Source: Diaporthe sp. PMI_573
Taxonomy: Eukaryota > Ascomycota > Sordariomycetes > Diaporthales > Diaporthaceae
Assembly (NCBI GenBank): GCA_021399435.1
Contig: JAJTUP010000004.1
Coordinates: 1,798,001-1,862,000 of the forward strand
DNA: 64,000 nt
Direction of reading: 5' to 3'
Under the pieces are notes generated by a model. It had not been told where the DNA came from, searched no databases, and worked only from the letters and a program-made list of their open reading frames with translations. The position numbers were made by a program, and so were the translations under genes. Positions 2,453 to 37,589 of the stretch are shown piece by piece. How positions within the stretch are numbered: position 1 is the stretch's first letter; each line of letters opens with the position of its first letter.

Positions 2453-5400
2453 ATATCCATTCCTCAATGGATATTTCACTCAAGGGAGCTTAGTTTCAGG
2501 CCAGAGACAGGCATGCTTCTCAGAACGCCTGGTCATGCTAGGCACCTCCACGACCTGATCTTCTTGTCTTCTCAAGGGCTCGTTGAGGACGTACGTTTGA
2601 GTCATAGATTATTGACACACCTGCTTGGCCCTCTATAGTCATCGGCGAAATTCCCAAAATATGAAGTTCGAGGGTGATCCTCTATATCTGCAGCTCATCT
2701 AAGCATTCCAAACACTCAGACCAACATCCGAGTCTCAGGTTATTTAAAGGGTTGATTTTCTGATTAGTAACATTGAAGTATTCCGATCTGAAGCGGCCTT
2801 TCTGTGAGAAGCACCTGTCTTACAAGTCCAGAAACGAGTATGAAATTACTATCAATGATCCATACATTCTCCTCTTACATGGGCAGATGTCTGACAGATG
2901 TCTGCGCGTAACCACTCTTGCCGTAATAATCTGGTTCCGTGGCACACCATCTCGTAGGGGTCCAGATAGAGTTAGAAGGATTCCGATAAGCAACGACCCA
3001 CCAGAGCATAATGAGTAAGCGCACCATCGCCGTCCTTGTCCCCCATGGATGCAACACGTTCAACCGTAACCAACATCCGCGGTGAACAATAACAGACGGC
3101 ATACCCGTTTGAGCACTTTCCCGGGGTGCCGCATTCACAAGCCAGGCAGCAGGCGGGCCCAAGCTCCACTCTGGAAGTGGAATAACTCCCCTCGTCAAGC
3201 GTTGTTAGACCCGATTTCCGAGGACCCTTTGGATATCAATGGGCAAACATGGTAGTGGTGTGTGAACGACTCGTCACATTAGTCTAGCTGCATATCACAG
3301 GCACTGCATGTACACACATACACAGATGCGGCAGGCGGCAGGCGGCAGGCCGCGGTTCGGCCTATTATCGTTGATAACAAGCTGGCTGGGCTGGCTGGGC
3401 TGGTTGGGAGCCTGAACCTTTGCGGACCCTCCTCGCCCATCCCCCGGCGTTTGACGTTGCTGCAATGCATTTTGTGCATGCAGATACTTGCTTGTCGCTG
3501 TGCCATTCGGGCCAGTAACGGGGTCCGGGGAACGGTAGCTCGCTTCACTAACAATGAATACGTCGTGGGGGAGGGTGTGCGTACATGCGCTTCTGTGGTG
3601 CGCTTGTACGTGAATGTGTGGTATGGTAGCGGTGCCGTGGGATGGCTCGCATTAGGACAGTGAGACGGCCTCCACCCACCACTGACCAGCGGTAGCGCGT
3701 AGCAAGAGCCCCAACACATGAGGCCATTTCCTGGTTTATACCACGTTGGCTTCCAGGTCCTGCAGGTGAGGTGGCATCTGGTTGGGCGGGCTTGTTGCCG
3801 TGAGTCTTGTCAGGCAGCTTGACAGTTCGCCAAGCTGGCCGGTACCTGTGTGGTCCGTCGCCGAAGTATGTGAGGTCGACGGCTTGCACGCCCAAGGTGA
3901 CTGCACGGAGGGGCCGTGGAGGGTGCGACGTCGAGCAATGGAAAACGAACACATATCCAGGGTGCAATAGGGTGCAATAATTATATGCGACATGGGCAAA
4001 TAGCGAACGTCACACTTTTGCCAGCGGCAGTGGTTTCTCGTACTGGCGGAGCTCTTTCGCCTGATGTTCAGGACCCACCAATGTCAACACGTCGATCATC
4101 TCAGCACTCCGGCCTGGTCTTCAGGAGGCGAGAACTTCAGAGCACAACATAGTTCGGGCAATGACTCGCAAATTGTGCAAGCTGGTCGGTCTTGTAGGTT
4201 GCTGATGTGAAAATCTTGATACGCTGGCCGCATCCAAATCTGACTCGAAGACGGAACAAAACTTGGTTAGTCTTGCGGAAATGTTCTCGAAGGTTAGGTA
4301 GACTGGGAGAGCCGGGCCTCCCGCCTCGTTCGCGTTCCTGGGGGTATACGCGCTTGACTGAGATCTTTGAAGGCAGCTGTTTCGAATACGCCTTGCGGAC
4401 TTGGGCATTCAATTAAATACAATGAGACAGAGAGTCACTGTATATTCGGTGCAGCATGCTGGCTGGCACGGGGGACTCCGGCCGTTGGACCGGTCAGATT
4501 CTGGCCGTTTTGGCATCAAGGATGGGGTTGGACCAGATGCTGGTTGACTGCGGATCGGTGCAGAAGACCAGCAGGAACTACAAAGGCAACTGAGACATTG
4601 AAACATCCACTCCTGCAGGACCCCAGGGGCACACCCGTGCCGGTGAGGCGAGGTGGGCCTCGACTTGGAAGAAGTAGAGACAGTTGTCTTAGGAACCCAG
4701 GGCAGGCCAGACCAATGGCGCGAGAGAGCAGACCCGGGGTCCCATCATGTGGTTGGGCCCACAGTAGGTATGACGACAGGAAGCAACAGCACTTGAGGCC
4801 AAGCTGGTTGGTGATGCTGGATGCTGACCGCACTCGCTAGTGCACAAGGCTCTGCTGATGTGGTGTGAAAGCGCAGATTCTCCATCGGTGTGCTTGCTTC
4901 CTGGGCGGTCCGCCCGGAGAGTCATGAAAGAGACGGTTGTTATCATTGATGATTAGAGCTACTGGGAAGATGCGCGGCGCCTACAATGCCGGATCGCCGC
5001 AGTGGTGGTGTACTATGCAATACAAAGCGAAGTGTGCTCTGTGTCATCGAAAGGGATCTGCAGATGTGGGTTGTCAGGTTGTACTGCAGCCTGCCTAGTC
5101 TGCTACTAACAAGCATGTTGACATTGAATAACCGATCCACGCACTAGGCATCCGCTGAAGCAATGCCTGCTTGATAGGCACCTCTGTGGACAACGACGAG
5201 ACGGGGTTTGCTGCTGGCTGCTGGCCGCTGGCTGCTGGCCGCACGCTACATGCTGCATGAGAGAGGCGCAAGACTATGAACAGCACAGGCCGACAACAGG
5301 GACGGTAGTCTCGTTACTAGGCGATCCTGGGGCCAGCCAGCGTTGCGGTGAAGACAGCTTTGCTTCGTATACGGCGGCTCCCGGTCTGGCACAGCTGAGT

Positions 5401-15364: not shown

Positions 15365-16335
15365 TTGTTGAAGAGCGAATGAATCCTTTGCTCATAGTGC
15401 TGGAAATCTGTCCATACTCTCAAAATTGCCATGGCAGTCAATTGCTTCAGCTAAGTATAATGAGAGAGATGTATTGAATCTTGTTCTAATAGCTATATAA
15501 TTCTACTGCTATATCTACCAGCTATGCTAAGACAAATGCTGTTTAATGAGGAACATTGATAAAGAAGTATAAGAATGTGTTGGATGAGGCCCACGGTACA
15601 GTTGAAGGCGAGGTCTGTATTAACAACCATCCAAAAGATGCTGCAAAAACAATCTATGCCCTGAAAAGGAGCTGAAGCCGCAAATATCTTTGCCAAATAC
15701 ATATGAGCAGTGTAACGGCACGGGTCTTATATACTGCTTAGAATGCCAAATGTTGATTTGGAATTCTGGTCTTTTGGCCAAGCGGTCTATTGTGCAAGCA
15801 GTCAATAGAAATCGTCTCAAGCAGCTCAACGCAGTTCTTTTTCCTGCTGCTGCTATTGCTCCTTCCGCTATCGGATAATGATGTCCTGAAGCTCGGCAGT
15901 TCCCTGGACGAGTTCAAGGCACTCCTCATCGTGACCCCAGCCATTGAATAATAACAGTAGAATTGGTCCTGCACGGCTGTCTTCTACCGATTTGTGAGGC
16001 GATATAAAAAACACGAAAGAAGGTTTGTATATTCAAATGGAAAGCACGGAGTACACGCCTGTAGGAGGTCACCTCCCATTGAATCGTGTAAATAGCACCG
16101 ACATCCTGCAAGAGCAACCGTGACTGCTATAACTTCTGACTCCCTATAGTTAGGCAGGTGTCACTGACCGTGTGCGTCACGTCTGGGCACCCCGGTGTTG
16201 ACCGTTGTCGTCCAGTGTCCCCTCCTTGCTCAACACGTTCATCACCTACCTCACCCTTTGCCATTAAGTACCATATCGCTGATTCCGAGCGGCTATTCTT
16301 CATCCTACTCCTCCGTCACAATTGTGGTTACCACC
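15365..16335. other. AT-rich intergenic stretch upstream of the P-loop kinase gene
   Basis: Only short ORFs occur on both strands, none with a motif I recognise. The last 150 bases are pyrimidine-rich and are probably the promoter and leader of the gene at 16336. Confidence 0.5.
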
Positions 16336-17626
16336 ATGAACGCAGGCGCCGGTGCCCTACTCTTTGCGGCTGTCTTAGCCCAGCGGGCCAGGGATCCGAA
16401 CACCTACGTCCTCAAGGAAAAAGACAACCAGAAGATCTTCGACCAAGTCATTGTCCAAGAGGAACTGGCACATCTCAAGGATTTCGGTCATCTGAAGGAC
16501 GGAGTCCAGCCAATTGTCGTCTTTGTCGTGGGACAGACAGGATCCGGAAAGACTCGTCTCGCCGCTGATTTGTTGGGTGTGCTGCAAGGACGTCAACCAG
16601 CACACCTCATCGCGGACGTCTATAAGGCCTATCGTGAGTTACCTGGACACCTCCCTGTCACATCCGGCCACCCAATTGGATACCAGTGATGTCAAATCGC
16701 TCAACGGAAAAGTAGATCCCAAATACACCACCCTCATCAAGGAATATCCCAATATAGCATCCCCTGCCACGAGCATAGATGCCCGCAAATGGTTCGACCT
16801 AGCAAGCAAATGGGCCATCCAGCGGAAGGTCGACGTTCTCCTCGAGTCTGCATGCCGCTATCCTGAGGACGTCGCATCTCTGATCTCCGCGTTCCACGCC
16901 GCAGGCTACCGGGTACTTGTTGCCCTAATGGCCGTCCCAGAATGCCTGAGCCTCCTGGGCACCATGGTGCGATACTACGAGAGGCTTCCCGAGGCCAAGT
17001 CTGCTAAAGTCCCCCTGAGAGTAACGCCTCGGGAGGTTCATGATGAGACCTATGCAAGTGTTTTCCGCCCCTCAGGACACGATGTAAATAGCTGACGATT
17101 GCTCTTGCAGGATGGAATACTGGCCGCAGCTGATTTCATCGACAACTCTACCGCCGTCACAAACGTCGTGGTTGTGCGCCGAAACAACCTCGTCGCCTAC
17201 CAGAACTTCCGCGGGCCCGACGGGCTCTGGATCCGCCCCGCGACGGCTCTCACGTCGCTTGACCTAGAACGGACCCGGCCGCTTCCTGCCTTGGAACATG
17301 GGAGCTTTCTCGCTGACTGCCAATATGTCGAGGAGCAGAAGAGCGAGAAGAAGAAGGCAAAGAAGCAGAAGGCCAAGGGCGGGGTGGCAGATGCGACTCT
17401 CGACGACGTAGAAACCTCGCTGGCTGGTCTGATGTCCATGGGTGGCCGTTTGAGCACCTCGTTGCCTGCCTGGAAGCTCCCTGCCATGAAGCCTCTTGAC
17501 GTCGAGGAGTGGGTGTTTGGGAAGTGGGACGTCAATAAGGCCACATTCGAGGGTCCAGAAGAGAGCACAGAGGCCGTGCTGCCCCGGAACAGCATCCTGC
17601 AGGAGATTGCGAGAGTCGAGCACTGA
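16336..17626 (+). CDS. Zeta-toxin-fold P-loop kinase family protein
   Basis: Three exons, 16336-16633, 16716-17053 and 17111-17626, give 383 residues. The Walker A motif GQTGSGKT is at 66-73. It is followed by a zeta-family core: a conserved YKAYHPKY stretch at the first splice junction, an arginine-containing TSIDARKW helix, and a long helical segment. A lysine-rich stretch lies in the last third. Bacterial zeta enzymes phosphorylate UDP-N-acetylglucosamine; fungal chromosomal relatives are widespread, of unknown substrate, and there is no antitoxin-like gene next door. The first intron's acceptor was placed at TAG (16713-16715) because it restores the expected HPKY. The second intron starts with GC, not GT (see findings). 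A cellular nucleotide or sugar kinase role is as likely as a toxin role. Confidence 0.8.
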
Positions 17627-26017: not shown

Positions 26018-26025
26018 TAGTATGT

Positions 26026-26334
26026 CACGGGCTTTGCTCGCGTGTCCGCTACGCGGCCACATCATGAATAACGAACTGCCTAGGCATTCCTTACTACTTA
26101 ACCTCCTGTAAGATTCACCCCCTATAGGAGAACTTCGTATAAAATATCCTACTCTGGAATCACCTATTATAGAATAATCTCCTACAGGAAGACCTCCTGT
26201 GGGATAACCTCCTTTAGGATAACCACTTGTGGGATAAGCCCTTATGAGGTTCCGGTTAGAAGGTAAGCAAGCCGTAGGGGCTCCACAATGACGTTTGTAA
26301 ATTTTTGGGCATGCCGCTGTGTTACTGTAATATT
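26026..26334 (-). repeat. Degenerate repeat, copy 2 (inverted relative to copy 1)
   Basis: This is the inverted homologue of 2224-2452. It contains about ten degenerate 15-16 bp units such as GGTTATCCCACAGGA (minus strand) and ends with the GC-rich hairpin-prone block GGCCGCGTAGCGGAC. It is longer than copy 1 because of extra tandem units. No ORF. Probably a non-autonomous mobile element or its remnant. Confidence 0.6.
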
Positions 26335-26343
26335 GTATTGTGA

Positions 26344-26376
26344 AGGATCGCCGTTCTCAATTATGAGTCTTCAGCT
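26344..26376 (+). repeat. Right member of an imperfect 33-bp direct repeat
   Basis: Partner of 25985-26017 on the other side of the degenerate repeat copy; differences are mostly transitions. Confidence 0.55.
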
Positions 26377-28973: not shown

Positions 28974-31361
28974 ATGATGTCTGCGTACATGGGGCAAAAG
29001 GCACGACTTGCGTCCAGTTCAACTTCCTGGTGTCACAACTGCAGCCGCCTAGCAGCAAAACTCTCAGACCTGCCAAGGAATGTCTTTCTGCGGTCCCTCG
29101 CAGCCGTTCTACATTTTGCCCGAGTACATGCTCTTGAGCATTACCGTTCAACAATGACCTCAGAATTTGTACGTGTTCCAACTTTCAAGTGGTCCGATAT
29201 CGTCCAGATATGGCATCATGCTTCCGCTCAGTTGATAGCTGACGGCATACCTTGCAACTTGGTCTTTTTTGGCGGGGCGGTGCGAATCGTGGCAATGTTG
29301 ACCAGACATGGAAGCAAGATCGTGGATCCATCTCACTCCGATCCCTTGCGGCCGTGGACGTATGGGCGATCAAGCCAAGACTCTCAAGATGGTTCTCAGA
29401 CAGGAATAAGGGCCAACTCTCTTGATCCCTTGGACAGCTCAGACTTGTTGGGCAACGAGAATCAGGAAACCCAGGGCTTGCATGAGGTTTCTATTCATCA
29501 GTATGAGTGGCCGTCGGAAGCAAGCCGATACAAGACCGTTGCTGCCAGCCGTGACTTATTGGCTCTCACAGCTCTGAATGAGGAGAAGCACACTCCCTCC
29601 ATCATCAAGGTCGGTGCCACCCACATATCACCTTGCGGAATGGCCCAGTATCGGACGTCAACACTCCGCATTTTGACAAGACTGATGCGTGACCACCACG
29701 AGAGTCAGTACGATGGTCTTGGTGGGTCCAACTCCGGGGACTCTTCGATTTGGACAGGTCTCTTCATCGAGTTGAGCGAATCATGGCGTGCTACAAGCTC
29801 AGCCGATTTAAAGCACCGTTTCAGCTGGGTATTGGAACTTCTCAGGACATGGAGCTTGCCTGCCCAGGCTGAGCTTGCCTCTCAGATCCTGTAGAAGAGG
29901 CTCCCTGGAAGTGTTTTCCTTCAGCAAACGCATCCGTACAACTACAAGATCCGATGCTCAACTCGCAAGTTCCTGAACCCAGATCTGTCCCCCGAGTGGA
30001 CAAAGGCATTCTTCTTAGCAAATAATGCCTTGGCAGATGTAGAAAGGGACATACAAGAGCAGATGGACGGACATACCATTAAAGGATTCTGTTCTCTGTA
30101 CGGGGTCTCGATCACACAGCTATGGGAACAAGCAATGGCTGAGAAAGGTCACTTTTACCCAGGCCTGGCACTTGTGCGTCCCTCTGCTTCATCGTTCATT
30201 TCTCGGCAGGCCAGCGAAGCTTCTGCAGCTCAAGAAGCCCAATATCATGTTCAGGCTGCGACGGGGGAGGCTGACCACCACCGTCCATCGTCTCCTCCCC
30301 CATACCCAACCCTACAGGGACACTCTGGTACCAGGAGGGCTACACGTTGGGAAGACTCCGAGATTCATCACTTGAAATAGTTGATGGAGCTCTCAATCCC
30401 GCTGAAGACAATACTAGCCAAGTTTCACGTTCGGTTCGGTGATTACCGCACTTCTCAATCTCTTCAGACTCAAATGAAGCTGCTTCGCAGAGCCGCGCGG
30501 GCGCGCGGAGATCGAGACGCCCCGCCGTCGACAACTGCGGCGCCGCAAAAGCCGTCAGGGCCGCCTGAGGCTCCGGAGCAGGTCGTATTTCCCCTGCGAC
30601 CAGCCGAGCCGGAGCCGGATCCGCCTGAGGTGTCTAGGCAGCGGCACACTTCTTCACGCAGGCAGAGTGCAGCATTCACGTACCTGAAGGACGAAGGCGA
30701 TGCCGAGCGGGAACATCTCAGGTCATTGCTGAACTCTTGCAATAGCTGGCACCAAGCCAGCAGTGCAATGAAGACAAGGTTTGGCGACAAGGGATCAACG
30801 CAAGTCTTCCAGACCATTGCGACACTGGAGAGTATGGACACCTCAGGACTTTCCTCTCGCAATCGAATCCCATGGACCGCTGAGGAGCACACCTTTCTGC
30901 AGTCTCTTGTCCCGAAATGTGCGACGTGGAAGGAGGTTTACGATGGGTTAGAAGCCGAGTATCCAAAAGGCCGAAGTATGGCAACAGTCCGTCATTGCAT
31001 TACGAAGCAAAATATCGATATATCGCAGCTGAGCAGTCCAAAACCGTGGACTCTGGAAGAGGACAATGTCCTGAGAGAGTTTTTTGATTCTGGAGTTCCT
31101 CGACCTCAGTTTCCCACTCGTTTCCAGGAGAAGTTCAGCTCTGGGCGCACCCATGGCGCGATCATAGAGAGAACTCAACTACTGGGACTGCTGAAGAAGG
31201 AGAATTGGTCTGAGGCCGAGTTGCAGAATGTTCGAGGCTATGGCAACCTTGACCTCCAGGACTTTTGCGCTCAATTCCGGCAAAAGTTTGGACTTGATCG
31301 GACGTTCAAGGCACTCAAAAGACAGCGACTTTTGCAGAGATCAGCTCAACCGGACGATTAA
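28974..31361 (+). pseudogene. SANT/Myb-repeat protein gene with two in-frame TAG codons
   Basis: One continuous reading frame of 796 codons runs from ATG 28974 to TAA 31359-31361, interrupted only by TAG at 29892-29894 and TAG at 30378-30380. The first 306 codons are unassigned; a later ATG at 29155 is also possible. The last 330 codons hold SANT/Myb-like repeats with the W...E...L pattern: WTAEEHTFLQSL, WTLEEDNVLREF and WSEAELQNVRGY. An earlier repeat starts RWEDSEIHHLK and continues after the second TAG as LMELSIPLKTI, so that stop falls inside a conserved helix where relatives have an ordinary residue. Both stops could be CAG-to-TAG transitions of the kind RIP produces. For the first TAG, a 66-nt phase-0 intron (29829-29894, GTATTG...CTGTAG) could remove it. 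For the second I found no frame-preserving intron that keeps the repeat. Presumed DNA-binding protein, probably broken. Confidence 0.65.
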
Positions 31362-32000
31362 GTTCTCGGAGCTTAGCATCATTCCCACTCACAGGATCTA
31401 CTCAATCCTTCCCACGCTACGCATTTGGAACATCAACACATCGACAAGCAACGTGCGATCGCAGGAACCAAGCGAGACGAGATCCCGTCAGAAGTTGGAG
31501 GAGCGGTCAAGGGCAGCAGAAAAAATTGCTCGTTGAAGGCACAGGACCTGGTTCTTCAGCGGCGGTCAGACAACATCGTGGAAAGCAAAGAGAGCAGCCG
31601 AGCAGGGCGCAACGTGACGGAGCATAGTGTGCAGGGTGTCTTCGGATCGTGACGATCCCTTTCTCAATTGAAGAATGGAGTTGGTTGTTCTCTAAGTGTA
31701 GTCCTGATACCATGTCGCATCAATCATGTGAGCTCCATCAACCGCAGAACCAGGCACAGCAAAGCCCAGAGCGCAGGAACCGATTCGTCCGCGATAGAAT
31801 GAGTATTCACGCACAGGACGCATCGCAACTATCGCGGGCAAAAGGGGCACGGAAGGACCGTACGGACGAGCAGTAGGCACTAAGGCGGTCGTCAACGTAA
31901 ATACCCACACTCTTCTTGGAGTCATGAAATGGCTTGGGTACCGAACACTCCTTGCGCACGATCCAAGCCAAGGCTCGGGTGCTTCCTCCATCTGGCGCAA
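31362..32000. other. Intergenic, 3' sides of two convergent genes
   Basis: Only short frames without motifs. Confidence 0.5.
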
Positions 32001-34722
32001 TCAGGCGCGCTGGATCATGGCCTCACGGTCGGGACCGGTGCCAATGTACTTGATCTGCGGGACGTTAGCAACTGCGGGCTTGGACAGTATGAGCGCCCAC
32101 GTACCTTGACTCCCACAAACTTCTCGATGTACTGCTAGAGGTCAGCACCATTGTCCGCTATACGAGCCCAATTCGAGTGCTTACCTCCACGTAATCGCGA
32201 GCCTTCTTGGGCAGATCGTCGTAGGTCTTCGCGTTGGTAGTCGGCGTCTGCCACCCTGGCATCTCATGGTAAACCACCTCAGCTCGTTCCAAGATCTTAA
32301 GATCCGCAGGGTAAGAGTCCAATTCCTGTCCAGGCGGTCAGCGTCACTATCATCTATTATGATCTCGTTGGCATCACTAACCTGTCCGTCGACCTTATAA
32401 GCGATCGCGATCTTGATCGTTTCGAAAGTGTCCAAGACGTCGAGCTATAAACTGTTAGAATATTTTCAAATATGTAGGAAGCATACCAGGCCGACCTTTG
32501 TCAGATTAAGGCTGGTGTAGTAGTTGATTGAGTTGCTGTACTTGACAACAACAAGGTCTGTATGTACTTGTTAGTTGCGCTCCCAGTTCCGTCAATCCCT
32601 GAGGTTTTGAAGTTGTGCGTACCGAGCCTGAGAGCAGTTAGTAAGTTGATCAGCAGCTAAACGCTAAAGTGATTAAAGCTCACCATCCACATCGACGTCT
32701 GCGGCCGGTCGACGTCCCCTATGTCTTGTCAGCGGTGAAAGCTCGAATCCTCTGGGGTGCATGTAGCCTCACCCATTCGCGTCCAATCTCCTGAAGTTTG
32801 GTGCCAATCCTGAGGTTTTCAATTAGTCTAGAGTGGCTTCGGGAACGTAATAAAGACGCACTCTTCCGTATCTTCGGTCTTGAAGGCACCCCAACCGACA
32901 CGGGTGGTGTCTGTTGCCAGTCAGCAGTGAATGACAGCCTTAAAGCAATTAACATACAAGCCTTGACCACTCCAACCGTCTCTGCAATGTTCTTCGGGTT
33001 CAGGGTGAGTCCACCAATGATGCCAGCAAGCGTGGTACTTGACGAAGTAACGAACTGTTATTGATTATAAGCACTGGTGCAAAAACGAAGAACAAAGTTA
33101 ACGCAGACTTACTGGGTACGAGCCATAATCAACATCTAGCATCAGTGCCTATTGAAGTAAGCACTGTTTGTTTTAACGTTTGGGACGAGAACATTACGTT
33201 TGCGCCTTCGACCACAATCTTCGTGTCGCTCTGCTGTGCGGATGTCATGAAGGACACGCCGTCCACGACGTATTTCCTCATCATCTCCCTATACTCCTCA
33301 AAACGAGCAAGCTCGGCTTCGATGTCGTACTTGAACAGTTCTCCAAAGCGCTTTTGATAACCATCAGCTAAGCGCTTCACCTTCTTCTCGAAAACTTCAG
33401 GATAGAAGATGTCGGTTAATTTGATGCCAGTTCGCTGGGAAAGTTAGCGCACACGTGCGACCCCTCGTCAAGCCAACTTCTTACCGCTCTGCTTGTTTGG
33501 TAGCATGGACCAATGCCTTTGGTGGACGTTAGACCCCGTTGCTTTAATAGAATCGCTAGCCCTGCTGTTCATATATGGGAGTGCTTGTAAAGGGGCAAAA
33601 GCAGCAGAAAGGAACAGCCCAGCATGAAGTTCTGAGGGTACAGTACCGCGTTTTGTTGTTCCAATAGCTGCGTCTGAGGTTTTCATTAGCTGCTGTTTCT
33701 TAAAGAGAGCATCGGAACCATGGGACGAACCTCCAAGCTCCTCCTCCTCGAGACCATCCACTGCCATGTGCATGTCCAAGAGGACATTGACCCTGTCAGA
33801 AACAAGGATTCGGTCGTGTACCGCGGTCAGGCCCTCTGAGCTATGTTAGACATACTGATGCCCAAAAGACTGGGATATCCTGCAACATACTCTCTTCAAG
33901 CTCCTTGAGCTCGCTGAAGAAGGTTGGGCTAGAGGGACCGAGTCAGTCTTATTGACCTGTTCAGTTGAGGGGTGCGAGCCAGGCGAGACATCAATAAGAT
34001 GCCTGTCTGGCGATCGATCGGGTCATAGTCGGAGGATTTTGTGATGACGCACATGTGAAAGACCACACCGGAGCCGATGAAGTTCATGCACCGCGGATTC
34101 ATGAGGCCGGAGGGCAAGAGGTGAAAGCTAATACAAGTCAGTAGCCAACCACAGCTTCGACGCCGGCCCGTTCTTTACCTGTAGGAGACTCCATCCACCC
34201 TTTGACTCATTAGCAAATAACAAGTATATCAATTGATCGATTGAAAGCGTTTGACGAACTTGATCATGTGACCTGAAACCGTCCTACCGGTCAGCGCTGG
34301 CCCCCGATTGAGACCGCTTTAGAGATTCGCCTCGCGGCAGATAGACTGACCTGCATTAGATCCACCCTTGAGGGTAGTTAGCAGGTATTCCACCGGGAGA
34401 TAGTCGATTGCGAAGGGATCGTGGAAGCCGTTCGCGGAATTGGTGCCTTCGTTGAACTTACGGCAGCTCGGCAACAGAGTTGCGCCTCCCGGGACTGGAT
34501 ATCAACCAGCTTTCCCTTCTGAACACACAGTATCGTTAATGTCCGGATGTCGGGCCGTATTGGGTTCGGATCGAGGACTCACGCCTTCGTCGCCTATGAG
34601 GTTATCGTTAGTATCGTGAGAGCCAACCGATATCGGCCGGGCGCAGAGGAAGGACGCATTCCAGGCAAGGGAGGCAAGGCAAACTTACCCCATTGGGCCC
34701 CGAGAATGACATTGATAGTCAT
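32001..34722 (-). CDS. Adenylosuccinate synthetase, split into 23 exons
   Basis: The family signatures run in order on the minus strand: ILGAQWGDEGKGKLVD (GTP and catalytic Asp loop), [106 protein letters not shown] and [11 protein letters not shown]. The product is 423 residues, the usual length, with no internal stop. It joins IMP and aspartate using GTP, the first step from IMP to AMP. Exons (gene order): 34689-34722, 34583-34593, 34462-34518, 34351-34366, 34260-34272, 34179-34199, 34053-34127, 33891-33928, 33731-33835, 33647-33673, 33485-33516, 33198-33434, 33113-33148, 32958-33054, 32862-32910, 32773-32809, 32684-32718, 32623-32627, 32496-32557, 32382-32444, 32185-32325, 32105-32131, 32001-32054. 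Every junction restores family sequence. I cannot tell whether this is the genome's only copy. Confidence 0.92.
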
Positions 34723-36505
34723 TTTTTGCGAGATCGAGACTGGTTGTCGTGGGTGCCGTTGTTGTGGTTGAGAGAATAAAAAGACGATGCGCGACAAGAT
34801 TTTCATGAACGCGGCTGCGATTTCAGACTTATCTGGAGTGAAGGGCAGGTGGTGGGGCTAGCGGGGATGGTCCCTGCAGGGTGCCCGTGCAGGTCCCCTT
34901 ATCGATAAGGCCCACTGCCCTACACCTTTGCCCGAAGGTCTGCAGAGAGCTTCTGATTTCCTTCTTTCTTCCTTAGGCAGACCTACTCTTAAAATCCACA
35001 TAATTTGGTGCAAACTTCGAGCCATTGTGCCCTGGAGCCCAAGTGACGTCTCATCTGCAGGCCTGTTGGCCCGGTGGACGGTCCACGTGCGGGGTAGGTG
35101 GACAAAGCTGGACCCTACCCCGCACCCCCCCCGTAGCAGCCCCCCGGTAACCCCTACCAACCCCCTAACCCCTTCTAGCCTATTCTAACCTCCCCTTAGA
35201 ATAAATAAAAAAAGAATAAAAAAAGAAGGGGAAGAGGAAGAAAGGTAAAGGAGGGAAGGGAAAGGAAAGAAAGGGAGATTTTTTTTTTTTTTAGTTATCA
35301 ACTGAAATATATATTAAGCTTAACTATACATGTTTGTATTGATAATTAATAAAGATAACTGACTCTGCCTAATTTTTTATTGTATGCTAGTATGCTTTAG
35401 TGGTCTTCTTAATGACCCGGGTACTGTACTTGTCTAGACGAGTTTTAATATGTTTGTTGTAGAGGACTGAAAGGTCTTCCGACCTGTGCTGCTAGATTAG
35501 CAGGTGCTTCTCTAGTAAAGCATAGTCAAGTTTCGGCGATAATCCAGCAGAGCCAGCCAGTCTAGTGGTGGTAATGGAAGTATTTAATATGGTTGGAGAG
35601 GGATATTTAATAAGTCACTTCCTTTGTCGGGAGCATGAAAATTCTTAAGAGGTCGGCAGATGAGATCAAGTTGCCTGGTCTGAGAGGAGGTTGCAAGGAA
35701 AGGTCCAGATGTCGGCCACTTGGAGGAGCACGCTCGATCATTTATAACTGAGCTGATGCGCCCGAGACGCGTCAGACGAGCGAGGTCCTATGCATAGCGT
35801 TCGCAATGCTACCAACATCGCGCGCCGGCGGACTACTTCTCATTGGATAGTGGACGTATGCAATCTCACACATCGAAAAGGCCATTCGCGCGAAGCTGCG
35901 GCCGCGTGCAAGACTGTTGGTGTCATACCGATTGATGAGGCGGATGAGGTTGTGCTTGTAACATGACAGGGTCGAGAATTAACAATAAACATGTGGAGAA
36001 TAGGATTTGGGGTTAACAGGGGTCAGGGATCAATCTGCAAAACGACCGCGGTCAACAGAGACCCAGTCCTAGGCCCAGCCCAATGCAACCGCACAGTAGG
36101 GTGTGTTCATACCGTCTGTGCCACAGACACAAACGGCCATGAACTGGTGCACATCGTTCCGTTCCATGTCATCCTAGATACCATGAAATCAGCATCATCA
36201 GGAAACTGCGGTCTATCTTTGGGTATTCTTTAGATGTGTGAGAGGGTAATTAGTAGTTGGGTTGGTGACGACCAGCGAATCCTGCCTGTTGCATGTATTC
36301 ACTGAGAGTCGGGGCCATGAGACAAATAAGTGCTTGAAGCAGCCCAGGGGGTGGTAGTAACAGACTGCCCGGGTGGCTAGGAGCATCCCCGGTCTGTGCT
36401 AAGCAGGCTGGTACGCGTAAATTGAGCAACCTCTTATCCAGCCGCGCTCAAAGGTTCGAGCGGACCGACTTCGACTTGCGACTCGCGATCCAGTCCAGTT
36501 TCAAA
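34723..36505. other. Intergenic with hairpin, purine tract, T-run and AT-rich sequence
   Basis: From left to right this holds the synthetase promoter with the palindrome CTTATCGATAAG (34898-34909), a GC-rich hairpin (35087-35125), a C-rich stretch, an A/G-rich stretch (about 35200-35278), a run of 14 T (35279-35292), AT-rich DNA to about 35600, and the SWC5 promoter. No gene was recognised. The mixture looks like decayed mobile-element sequence. Confidence 0.5.
35087..35125. repeat. GC-rich inverted repeat (12-bp arms, 15-nt loop)
   Basis: GTGCGGGGTAGG at 35087-35098 pairs perfectly with CCTACCCCGCAC at 35114-35125. A second palindrome, GTGGAC-G-GTCCAC, abuts it at 35074-35086. The position upstream of a purine tract and a T-run suggests a mobile-element end, but no partner copy is in the window. 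Confidence 0.6.
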
Positions 36506-37589
36506 ATGTCGCATGAACCTACGATTGACGATGAGGACTACGCCTCGTCCGAGGATTCAGACTTCGCACCGGAGGAAGCACAGGAGCGCGGCGACGACGC
36601 CTCCTCTGACGACGAAGACGAACTCGCCAGGGATGCTACCGCCCCAGTGCCTGTGAAACGGAAGAGGCAAACGCAAGCTGGTGATGGCGATGACGCAGCG
36701 GACGCGGGCTTCGAAAACTCGGGCGACGAGGCAATTATCGGGAGGGGCAAGAAAAAGCAGAAGAGCCGTCTGGCGCAACGCGACGAAGATGAGGGCGGGG
36801 AAGGCGGCTTGATCAAGACGCGGAGCATGCGCGCTGTAGAGTGAGTGACTGCCAATGTTCACCCGTTTGTACATCAGCCGCCAAACTAAGGACTAATCCA
36901 ATGGTCCTTGCAGGAAAGCAGAGCGCAAGACCCAAGCAGCGAGTGGGCCAGTGACTGTCAACGTCGACGCACTATGGGCTTCGATGACAGCGGATCCAGT
37001 CATACCTACGAAACAACAGCTCCAAGCGGACCCAAAAGGCGAGAATGGTGGTGCCCCAGCAGCCCCAGGGGATTTAAATACACAGGCGGCAACCGGCAAG
37101 GACAGCGATCCCAGCGAGATGATCAAGATAAAGCGAACGTACAACTTCGCCGGCAAGGTTCACACCGAAGAGAAGCTCGTGCAGCGCGACTCGGCCGAAG
37201 CAAGGCTATACCTCGCCTCGCAGGGCGAGAATGGCGCCGCCGCCGCCGCCGAGGAAGCCGACGAGCCAGACAAGCGGATGCCGCGCAAGGCGTTCCGCTC
37301 GGCCTTCGAGCCCGTGGCCGTGGAGCCGGGCCAGCGGTCGGACCTGAACCTGGGGATGGCGTCCCGGCTGCAGGCAAGGCAGGACAAGGACAAGGCCAGG
37401 AAGCTCAACACGGTCGAGAAGTCGCGCATGGACTGGGCCGGGTTCGTGGACAAGGAGGGCATCAAGGACGAGCTTGCGCTCGCGGGCAGGGCGAAGGGGG
37501 CGTTCGCGGACAGGCAGGACTTCCTCGCGCGGAGCGAGGCGAGGAGGGACGAGGAGGCTAGGCGGGTCAGGATTGCGTCGAAGGTTTGA
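36506..37589 (+). CDS. SWC5: SWR1 chromatin-remodelling complex subunit Swc5 (BCNT/CFDP1 family)
   Basis: Two exons, 36506-36840 and 36914-37589, give 336 residues. The N-terminal third is strongly acidic (EDYASSEDSDFAPEE) with lysine-rich patches, as in Swc5 histone-binding tails. The C-terminus carries the BCNT-C domain, recognisable by TYNFAGKVHTEEKL and WAGFVDKEGIKDEL. The SWR1 complex exchanges histone H2A-H2B for H2A.Z-H2B, and Swc5 is needed for that step. The gene is convergent with the GST kappa-like gene, 183 bp apart. The start was chosen as the first ATG before the acidic region. Confidence 0.9.

Follow-up and report, generated by a model that had tools for sequence, protein, structure and literature searches.

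The canonical fungal adenylosuccinate synthetase (ADSS) is ADE12, and loss of its Magnaporthe version, MoADE12 (MGG_17000), makes this fungus an adenine auxotroph according to the accessible part of PMC9330342. Pezizomycotina orthologues have a mean of 0.47 introns per kb, and 4.5 is the highest value for any species named in the accessible part of PMC8476143. Massive intron gain following horizontal acquisition is reported, in the accessible part of PMC3584928, for a bacterial alpha-amylase in Basidiomycetes. The stretch analysed here (the window) comprises 64,000 nucleotides (nt) of Diaporthe sp. PMI_573 (contig JAJTUP010000004.1, positions 1,798,001 to 1,862,000) and carries an ADSS gene that belongs to the same family as the canonical fungal enzyme over its whole length and has the same motifs, but represents a separate paralogue lineage. 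We consider it likely that this gene is an intact representative of a second ADSS lineage, rich in introns, which has passed between filamentous ascomycetes in the form of genomic DNA with its introns in place, that the Diaporthe copy arrived horizontally and took over, and that the intron gain goes back to the stem of the lineage.

On the minus strand, from a start codon at 34722-34720 to a stop codon at 32003-32001, the gene (32001-34722) reads as a complete ADSS of 23 exons, with no internal stop once 22 introns are removed. The introns measure 47-130 nt and all of them (22/22) are of the GT-AG type. This structure was obtained in two ways, by direct reading by eye and by joining the exons with a script, and the gene was also recovered by a spliced-alignment script of our own, in which four foreign ADSS proteins served as queries against the raw window DNA. 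The protein of Verticillium dahliae (P0006) recovers all 22 introns, 5-nt exon included; those of F. solani, F. poae and Pyricularia give 21 introns each, 20 of them identical, the two introns flanking the 13-nt exon 5 being merged into one. With 22 introns in 1.272 kb of coding sequence, the density is 17.3 introns per kb. An earlier note on this DNA had claimed 23 exons with a full-length frame of 423 residues, exons 2, 4, 5 and 18 of only 11, 16, 13 and 5 nt, and about 17 introns per kb, all of which is borne out here.

The microexons are exon 2 (34583-34593, 11 nt), lying inside the P-loop motif WGDEGKGK, exon 4 (34351-34366, 16 nt), exon 5 (34260-34272, 13 nt), which supplies the His of NAGH, and exon 18 (32623-32627, 5 nt, GCTCG). 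None has a length divisible by three, and they are required for both the frame and the motifs. Exons 2 and 4 were placed by script joining and by spliced alignment (with the V. dahliae protein in the case of exon 4), exon 5 was recovered with the V. dahliae protein and skipped by the three more distant ones, and exon 18 was retained in all four alignments. The bases of exon 18 join TGT-GGA-TG to AC-CTT, restoring the W-L-D of CGWLDLV, and without them a TGA enters the frame.

Script joining places exons 1 (34689-34722, 34 nt), 3 (34462-34518, 57 nt), 6 (34179-34199, 21 nt), 7 (34053-34127, 75 nt), 8 (33891-33928, 38 nt), 9 (33731-33835, 105 nt, also found by spliced alignment), 11 (33485-33516, 32 nt), 12 (33198-33434, the longest at 237 nt), 14 (32958-33054, 97 nt), 15 (32862-32910, 49 nt), 16 (32773-32809, 37 nt), 17 (32684-32718, 35 nt), 19 (32496-32557, 62 nt), 20 (32382-32444, 63 nt), 21 (32185-32325, 141 nt) and 23 (32001-32054, 54 nt including the stop). 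Exon 10 (33647-33673, 27 nt) is absent in several relatives' public protein records, as is exon 13 (33113-33148, 36 nt) in some Fusarium and Metarhizium records. The acceptor of exon 22 has two AGs 3 bases apart: the distal one gives 27 nt (32105-32131), the usual residue count and a product of 423 residues, the proximal one an exon at 32105-32134 and a product of 424 residues. Some relatives' records carry one additional residue at codon 397, matching this double site.

A CTNAY site lies 7-18 nt from the 3' AG in 21 of the 22 introns. The gene is probably transcribed and spliced constitutively, and intron definition is the simplest account of the splicing: where introns are short and the branch site sits close to the AG, even a 5-nt exon can be defined from both sides. 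Romfo et al. are said to have argued in 2000 for intron definition in S. pombe. The product matches the Pfam family Adenylsucc_synt (PF00709) over residues 5-420 with 564.6 bits (cut-off 27) and carries, in order, WGDEGKGK (from residue 11), NAGH (38), GTTxRGIGP (127), TGRxRRCGWLDL (298) and LTKLD (327). Because these motifs are intact, the enzyme should, judging from its sequence, make adenylosuccinate from inosine monophosphate (IMP), aspartate and guanosine triphosphate, on the way to adenosine monophosphate.

That this reading is an artefact or a dead gene, whether a pseudogene or splice sites strung together by chance, has practically no credibility. Such an explanation could draw on P0009, very probably the public record of this same gene in Diaporthe sp. 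PMI_573, which differs from our reading: it has 462 residues with a start 28 codons upstream, the Leu of the 5-nt exon is missing and the translation runs into the last intron. Opposed to it are the 423 open codons, the recovery of 22/22 introns with a foreign protein, the intact motifs and, in relatives, contigs of the size of complementary DNA (cDNA). Complete 423-codon frames are found on contigs of 1.4-1.8 kb in seven records (P0001, P0003, P0004, P0005, P0011, P0018 and P0019) of the clade described below; as the gene itself spans 2.7 kb, contigs of this size resemble spliced transcripts from close relatives.

The sharing of introns with relatives was read from errors in public protein records, in which a retained intron appears as an insert and a missed exon as a gap. 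Compared with the 423-residue reading, internal insertions or deletions (indels) of at least 3 residues are present in 63 of 109 clade records (the clade being defined, for these counts and for the loop residue below, by at least 80% identity to the window protein) and in 17 of 121 other ADSS records, so that the public records of this lineage are often wrong. Most clade indels (96/126) fall within 2 codons of a window junction, positions that make up 22.5% of the protein. At the genus level and with Diaporthe left out, 51 of 83 distinct events are no more than one codon away from a window junction; when the set of junctions is shifted around the protein, the mean is 8.1, and none of 2000 shifts reaches 51. 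Scars of this kind in another genus mark 17 of the 22 window junctions.

Inserted peptides of 6-40 residues near junctions most often match the cognate window intron, or that of the adjacent junction, best (25/34, with 2.0 expected), a likeness of non-coding DNA that is gauged through translated introns in protein records. The translation of intron 9 (33674-33730, 57 nt) is matched by an insert in the Drechmeria coniospora record (69 vs 18 for the next best) and that of intron 10 (33517-33646, 130 nt) by inserts in Drechmeria (124 vs 20), Fusarium and Trichoderma records; an insert of Trichoderma viride matches intron 20 (65 vs 19), and the single insert from Venturia wins narrowly (22 vs 21). 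Intron 18 (32558-32622, 65 nt), directly 3' of the 5-nt exon, is read through in several relatives' records. In a shuffle test of 48 inserts, 22 outscored every one of 200 shuffles and 15 lie above p 0.05, in a set that includes near-identical Fusarium records and in which 8 of the 15 weak inserts were compared with intron 17 though most match intron 18. We know of no ordinary fungal introns that align between orders, and the similarity between Diaporthe and a Hypocrealean fungus would be hard to explain by vertical descent. The introns are therefore probably homologous across genera and would have travelled together with the gene in the form of genomic DNA.

Inserts of 4-7 residues were also observed at codons 62-64 in Fusarium, Metarhizium, Trichoderma and Dactylonectria, where the window gene has no junction, and these genera may have a further intron there.

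The earlier note had proposed either a burst of intron gain or acquisition from an intron-rich lineage. A recent burst private to the window fungus, which might seem favoured by the genome's other ADSS with its single plausible intron, is contradicted by the scars at 17/22 junctions and by the homologous intron sequence in other genera. Moreover, the 22 introns are mutually unlike: their best pair scores 21, and the shuffle maxima average 20.95. For the coding stretch, no match at another place in the genome is listed. We give a private burst very little credit. A detectable introner family behind such a burst was rejected as well, the introns being neither alike nor, among the matches listed, repeated in the genome, although introners of great age may no longer be recognisable. 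A burst further back, on the stem of the lineage, is possible. None of 16 chosen sister-group proteins (including those of F. graminearum and Xylaria) has internal indels of at least 3 residues, which suggests that ADSS genes of the sister group have few introns; the gain would then fall on the stem branch of the clade (0.22 changes per site), before the lineage spread. The same note had held that many close Sordariomycete orthologues sharing the 22 introns in a syntenic position would make this structure an ordinary lineage trait, and the first half of this is what we find: the introns do look shared.

To place the gene, two large protein searches were made, in each of which the 8000 candidates sharing most words were scored and the best 120 listed. 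The first tree comprised 107 rows (106 of 230 fetched proteins and the window protein, P0009 being left out); with its annotation errors unmasked Verticillium was split, and masking the odd stretches removed the split. The second comprised 75 rows (54 of the clade and 21 chosen others), 20 of them partly masked. In this masked tree the window ADSS falls in a 54-row second ADSS clade with a support of 100/100, accompanied by a sister group. The clade consists of two subclades, each mixing orders, and its members belong to Diaporthales, Glomerellales (Verticillium), Hypocreales, Xylariales, Coniochaetales, Phialemonium, Thyridium, Thozetella and the Dothideomycete Venturia, order labels that we take from general knowledge. 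Under LG+G4 without mixture, approximately unbiased (AU) tests reject the 26 Hypocreales rows as one group (174 log units, p 1.3e-11) as well as the 4 Xylariales rows (114 log units, p 7.1e-8). The gene tree thus conflicts with accepted groups, a mark of horizontal transfer.

Among the rows with an order label, to which the identity tables are confined, the median identity between orders is 0.884 in the clade (635 pairs, 45 rows) vs 0.697 in other ADSS (784 pairs, 46 rows). The window protein has an identity of 0.975 with that of Xylariaceae AK1471 (61 positions of its record masked), 0.955 with Phialemonium, 0.95 with Verticillium and 0.946 with Drechmeria, and, within Diaporthe, of 0.979 with D. 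ampelina (82 positions of its record masked) and 96% with D. vaccinii.

An early duplication in Pezizomycotina, followed by very strong conservation of protein and introns and by many losses without any transfer, would make the window gene an ancient vertical paralogue. The broad distribution of the lineage agrees with this, as does its occurrence together with another ADSS in six species (Phialemonium atrogriseum, Sarocladium strictum, Fusarium decemcellulare, Dactylonectria macrodidyma, Trichoderma barbatum and T. austrokoningii), and the AU test does not reject a tree with Venturia outside the others (0.244). Such a history nevertheless appears improbable, as identities across orders reach 0.976, equal to the level within Diaporthe, intron translations are little altered between Diaporthe and Drechmeria, and neither the Hypocreales nor the Xylariales form one group.

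As for the acquisition from an intron-rich lineage put forward earlier, acquisition itself is upheld by near-identity across orders, conflict with taxonomy and shared intron sequence, while the intron-rich donor, for instance a basidiomycete, is not, the nearest outgroup being Sordariomycete ADSS. A density of 17.3 introns per kb, far above the Pezizomycotina average of 0.47, would speak for such a donor, but it exceeds even the highest species value named, 4.5 per kb (PMC8476143, in its accessible part). The window protein stands beside the ADSS of Fusarium, Xylaria and Trichoderma, and the closest named proteins beyond the clade, among the best 120 matches (which extend beyond the clade into its sister group), are Sordariomycete ADSS with 75-79% identity. 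A basidiomycete donor was rejected because the best solved basidiomycete ADSS, that of Cryptococcus, scores 519.8 bits vs at least 752 for every listed match and because the outgroup is Sordariomycete; we regard an intron-rich donor as scarcely tenable. The Diaporthe copy would instead have been acquired from another Pezizomycotina fungus.

Several observations weigh against transfer of the lineage together with its introns. Three further complete clade records lie on longer contigs (P0010 on 2.9 kb, P0034 on 3.9 kb and P0017 on 51 kb), so contig size alone does not settle the matter of cDNA there. Indels in other ADSS also fall within 2 codons of a window junction in 14 of 19 cases, junctions 1 and 2 accounting for 8; some junctions near the N-terminus may predate the lineage, or such places may simply attract gaps. 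Nine of the 34 inserts fail to match their intron. Rows were picked by similarity to the window protein, which biases the clade identities, such as the median given above, upward, and other ADSS too attain a maximum of 0.929 between orders. Placing Venturia and one further row outside the rest costs 21 log units and is not rejected (AU 0.244), which makes transfer between classes less certain than transfer between orders. Lastly, no DUF3435 captain was found on the window's contig (C152, 2,194,850 bases), with 53 matches listed in the genome.

No vehicle came to light: Starship cargo was considered and rejected, as none of the captain matches listed lies on this contig. A search for repeats bracketing the gene gave only short, chance-like pairs, and a viral-contig scan for relatives' DNA found none. 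Our literature search found no work linking ADSS with Starship elements or with horizontal gene transfer in Pezizomycotina, and the papers it found that mention both Verticillium and adenylosuccinate synthetase have neither term in title or abstract. In another ADSS group (P0184, P0207, P0211), Sarocladium strictum, Fusarium decemcellulare and Nemania diffusa are joined at very short distance, and exchange of ADSS between orders may be more general than the window lineage.

A search of the whole genome with PF00709, in which the best candidates were scored, gave seven matches at two loci, the window gene and C1:2467958-2469096 (minus strand; locus L008, about 3880-5105). The search for a second ADE12 that the earlier note had proposed thus yielded one, but a gene broken in three places, by a frameshift at NAGH, by the loss of about 37 codons and by a further frameshift before the C-terminus. 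The gap of about 37 codons is absent from Coniella, Gnomoniopsis and a probable Diaporthe relative (P0125). Spliced alignment of a Coniella protein to this locus gives one plausible intron of 64 nt and three implausible ones at the broken ends, compared with the 22 introns of the window gene. The public record of the locus is a protein of 346 residues (P0122). Judged from its N-terminal letters, P0135 seems to carry the first frameshift too, and because the lesion seems shared it is probably not a sequencing error. Genes of the same type occur in Coniella, Gnomoniopsis, Hypoxylon, Daldinia and, oddly, Trichoderma evansii.

Because the only other ADSS locus found is broken, the window gene is probably the working enzyme of the strain, standing in for a decayed resident copy whose role it would have taken over. 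The strain may have a third, unassembled ADSS copy.

The lineage could also owe its spread to a lower sensitivity to natural ADSS inhibitors, of the hydantocidin type or hadacidin, an explanation that we find rather unlikely but that is compatible with transfer. Hadacidin acts at the aspartate site of ADSS, and the loop after GTTxRGIGP presumably lies by the IMP site (E. coli numbering). This loop has Ser in 107 of 107 clade proteins, while other ADSS have Lys (111/120), Ala (7) or Met (2), and such a Lys-to-Ser type of difference may be neutral. According to the accessible parts of the sources, phosphohydantocidin binds the IMP site (PMC3202864) and ADSS homologues are found in biosynthetic clusters of Hypoxylon (PMC12616698). 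On the window's contig, by contrast, some 616 kb separate the window from the closest ketoacyl-synthase match listed (123 of 180 candidates scored), and the listing contains no condensation domain there (79 of 86 candidates scored); both speak against this explanation. A polyketide or peptide synthetase cluster near the ADSS gene was rejected, as none of these listed matches lies nearby; terpene and other cores were not searched.

The surroundings of the gene contain a dispersed repeat (34837-35053, strand unassigned), for which 25 matches at other genomic sites are listed with identities of 71-92%, and which ends about 115 bases upstream of the start codon. Within 31370-37000 this repeat and 36116-36303, with neighbouring bases, are the only dispersed repeats. 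Another, diverged one at 26018-26354 (also 2221-2390) has about 40 matches listed genome-wide (39 of 128 candidates scored). The reading frame adjoining the ADSS gene (30381-31361) has seven database matches with E <= 0.001 among 2835 candidates, none of them named and one with a Myb-like domain; it is uninformative, neither showing nor excluding a co-transferred block. Further away, two overlapping reading frames at 16195-17095 match the Zeta_toxin domain (PF06414) and are probably one gene with an intron or a frameshift. Scans of the window for tRNA genes and Rfam families found none.

The excess of introns, 17.3 vs an average of 0.47 per kb (accessible part of PMC8476143), appears common to several orders. 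If DNA bears this out, it would be a multi-species case for the gain and retention of introns in bulk, would put intron-definition splicing to the test with an exon as small as 5 nt, and would be an instance of a core purine enzyme exchanged between fungi while the resident copy decays. More tentatively, and with less confidence than we attach to transfer as such, one can picture a housekeeping enzyme turned travelling gene: its lineage would have acquired some 17 introns per kb in a single episode on the stem, would pass between orders, perhaps even classes, as intact DNA that still bears the introns, and would displace the resident ADSS, possibly because it tolerates natural ADSS poisons.

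The locus compares with described systems in three respects. Candidate resistance genes in fungal clusters are, like the window ADSS, extra copies of housekeeping enzymes, and the Hypoxylon clusters hold an ADSS homologue (PMC12616698, accessible part), but unlike them the window gene has no listed polyketide or peptide synthetase match nearby. Our literature search found no work joining microexons with adenylosuccinate in fungi; the only functional microexon of a filamentous fungus that it returned is the 20-nt one of Xlr2 in Trichoderma virens (PMC11121469, accessible part), which, like those of the window gene, belongs to a filamentous ascomycete and was missed by gene prediction. The ADSS microexons, of 5, 11, 13 and 16 nt, are needed for frame and motifs, the 5-nt exon being far shorter than that of Xlr2; no sign of regulation was seen, nor was one looked for. 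The alpha-amylase of Basidiomycetes resembles the window ADSS in being, as far as the accessible part of PMC3584928 goes, a transferred gene unusually full of introns. Unlike that gene of bacterial origin, the window ADSS would have had another ascomycete as donor, and its introns appear to have come with it.

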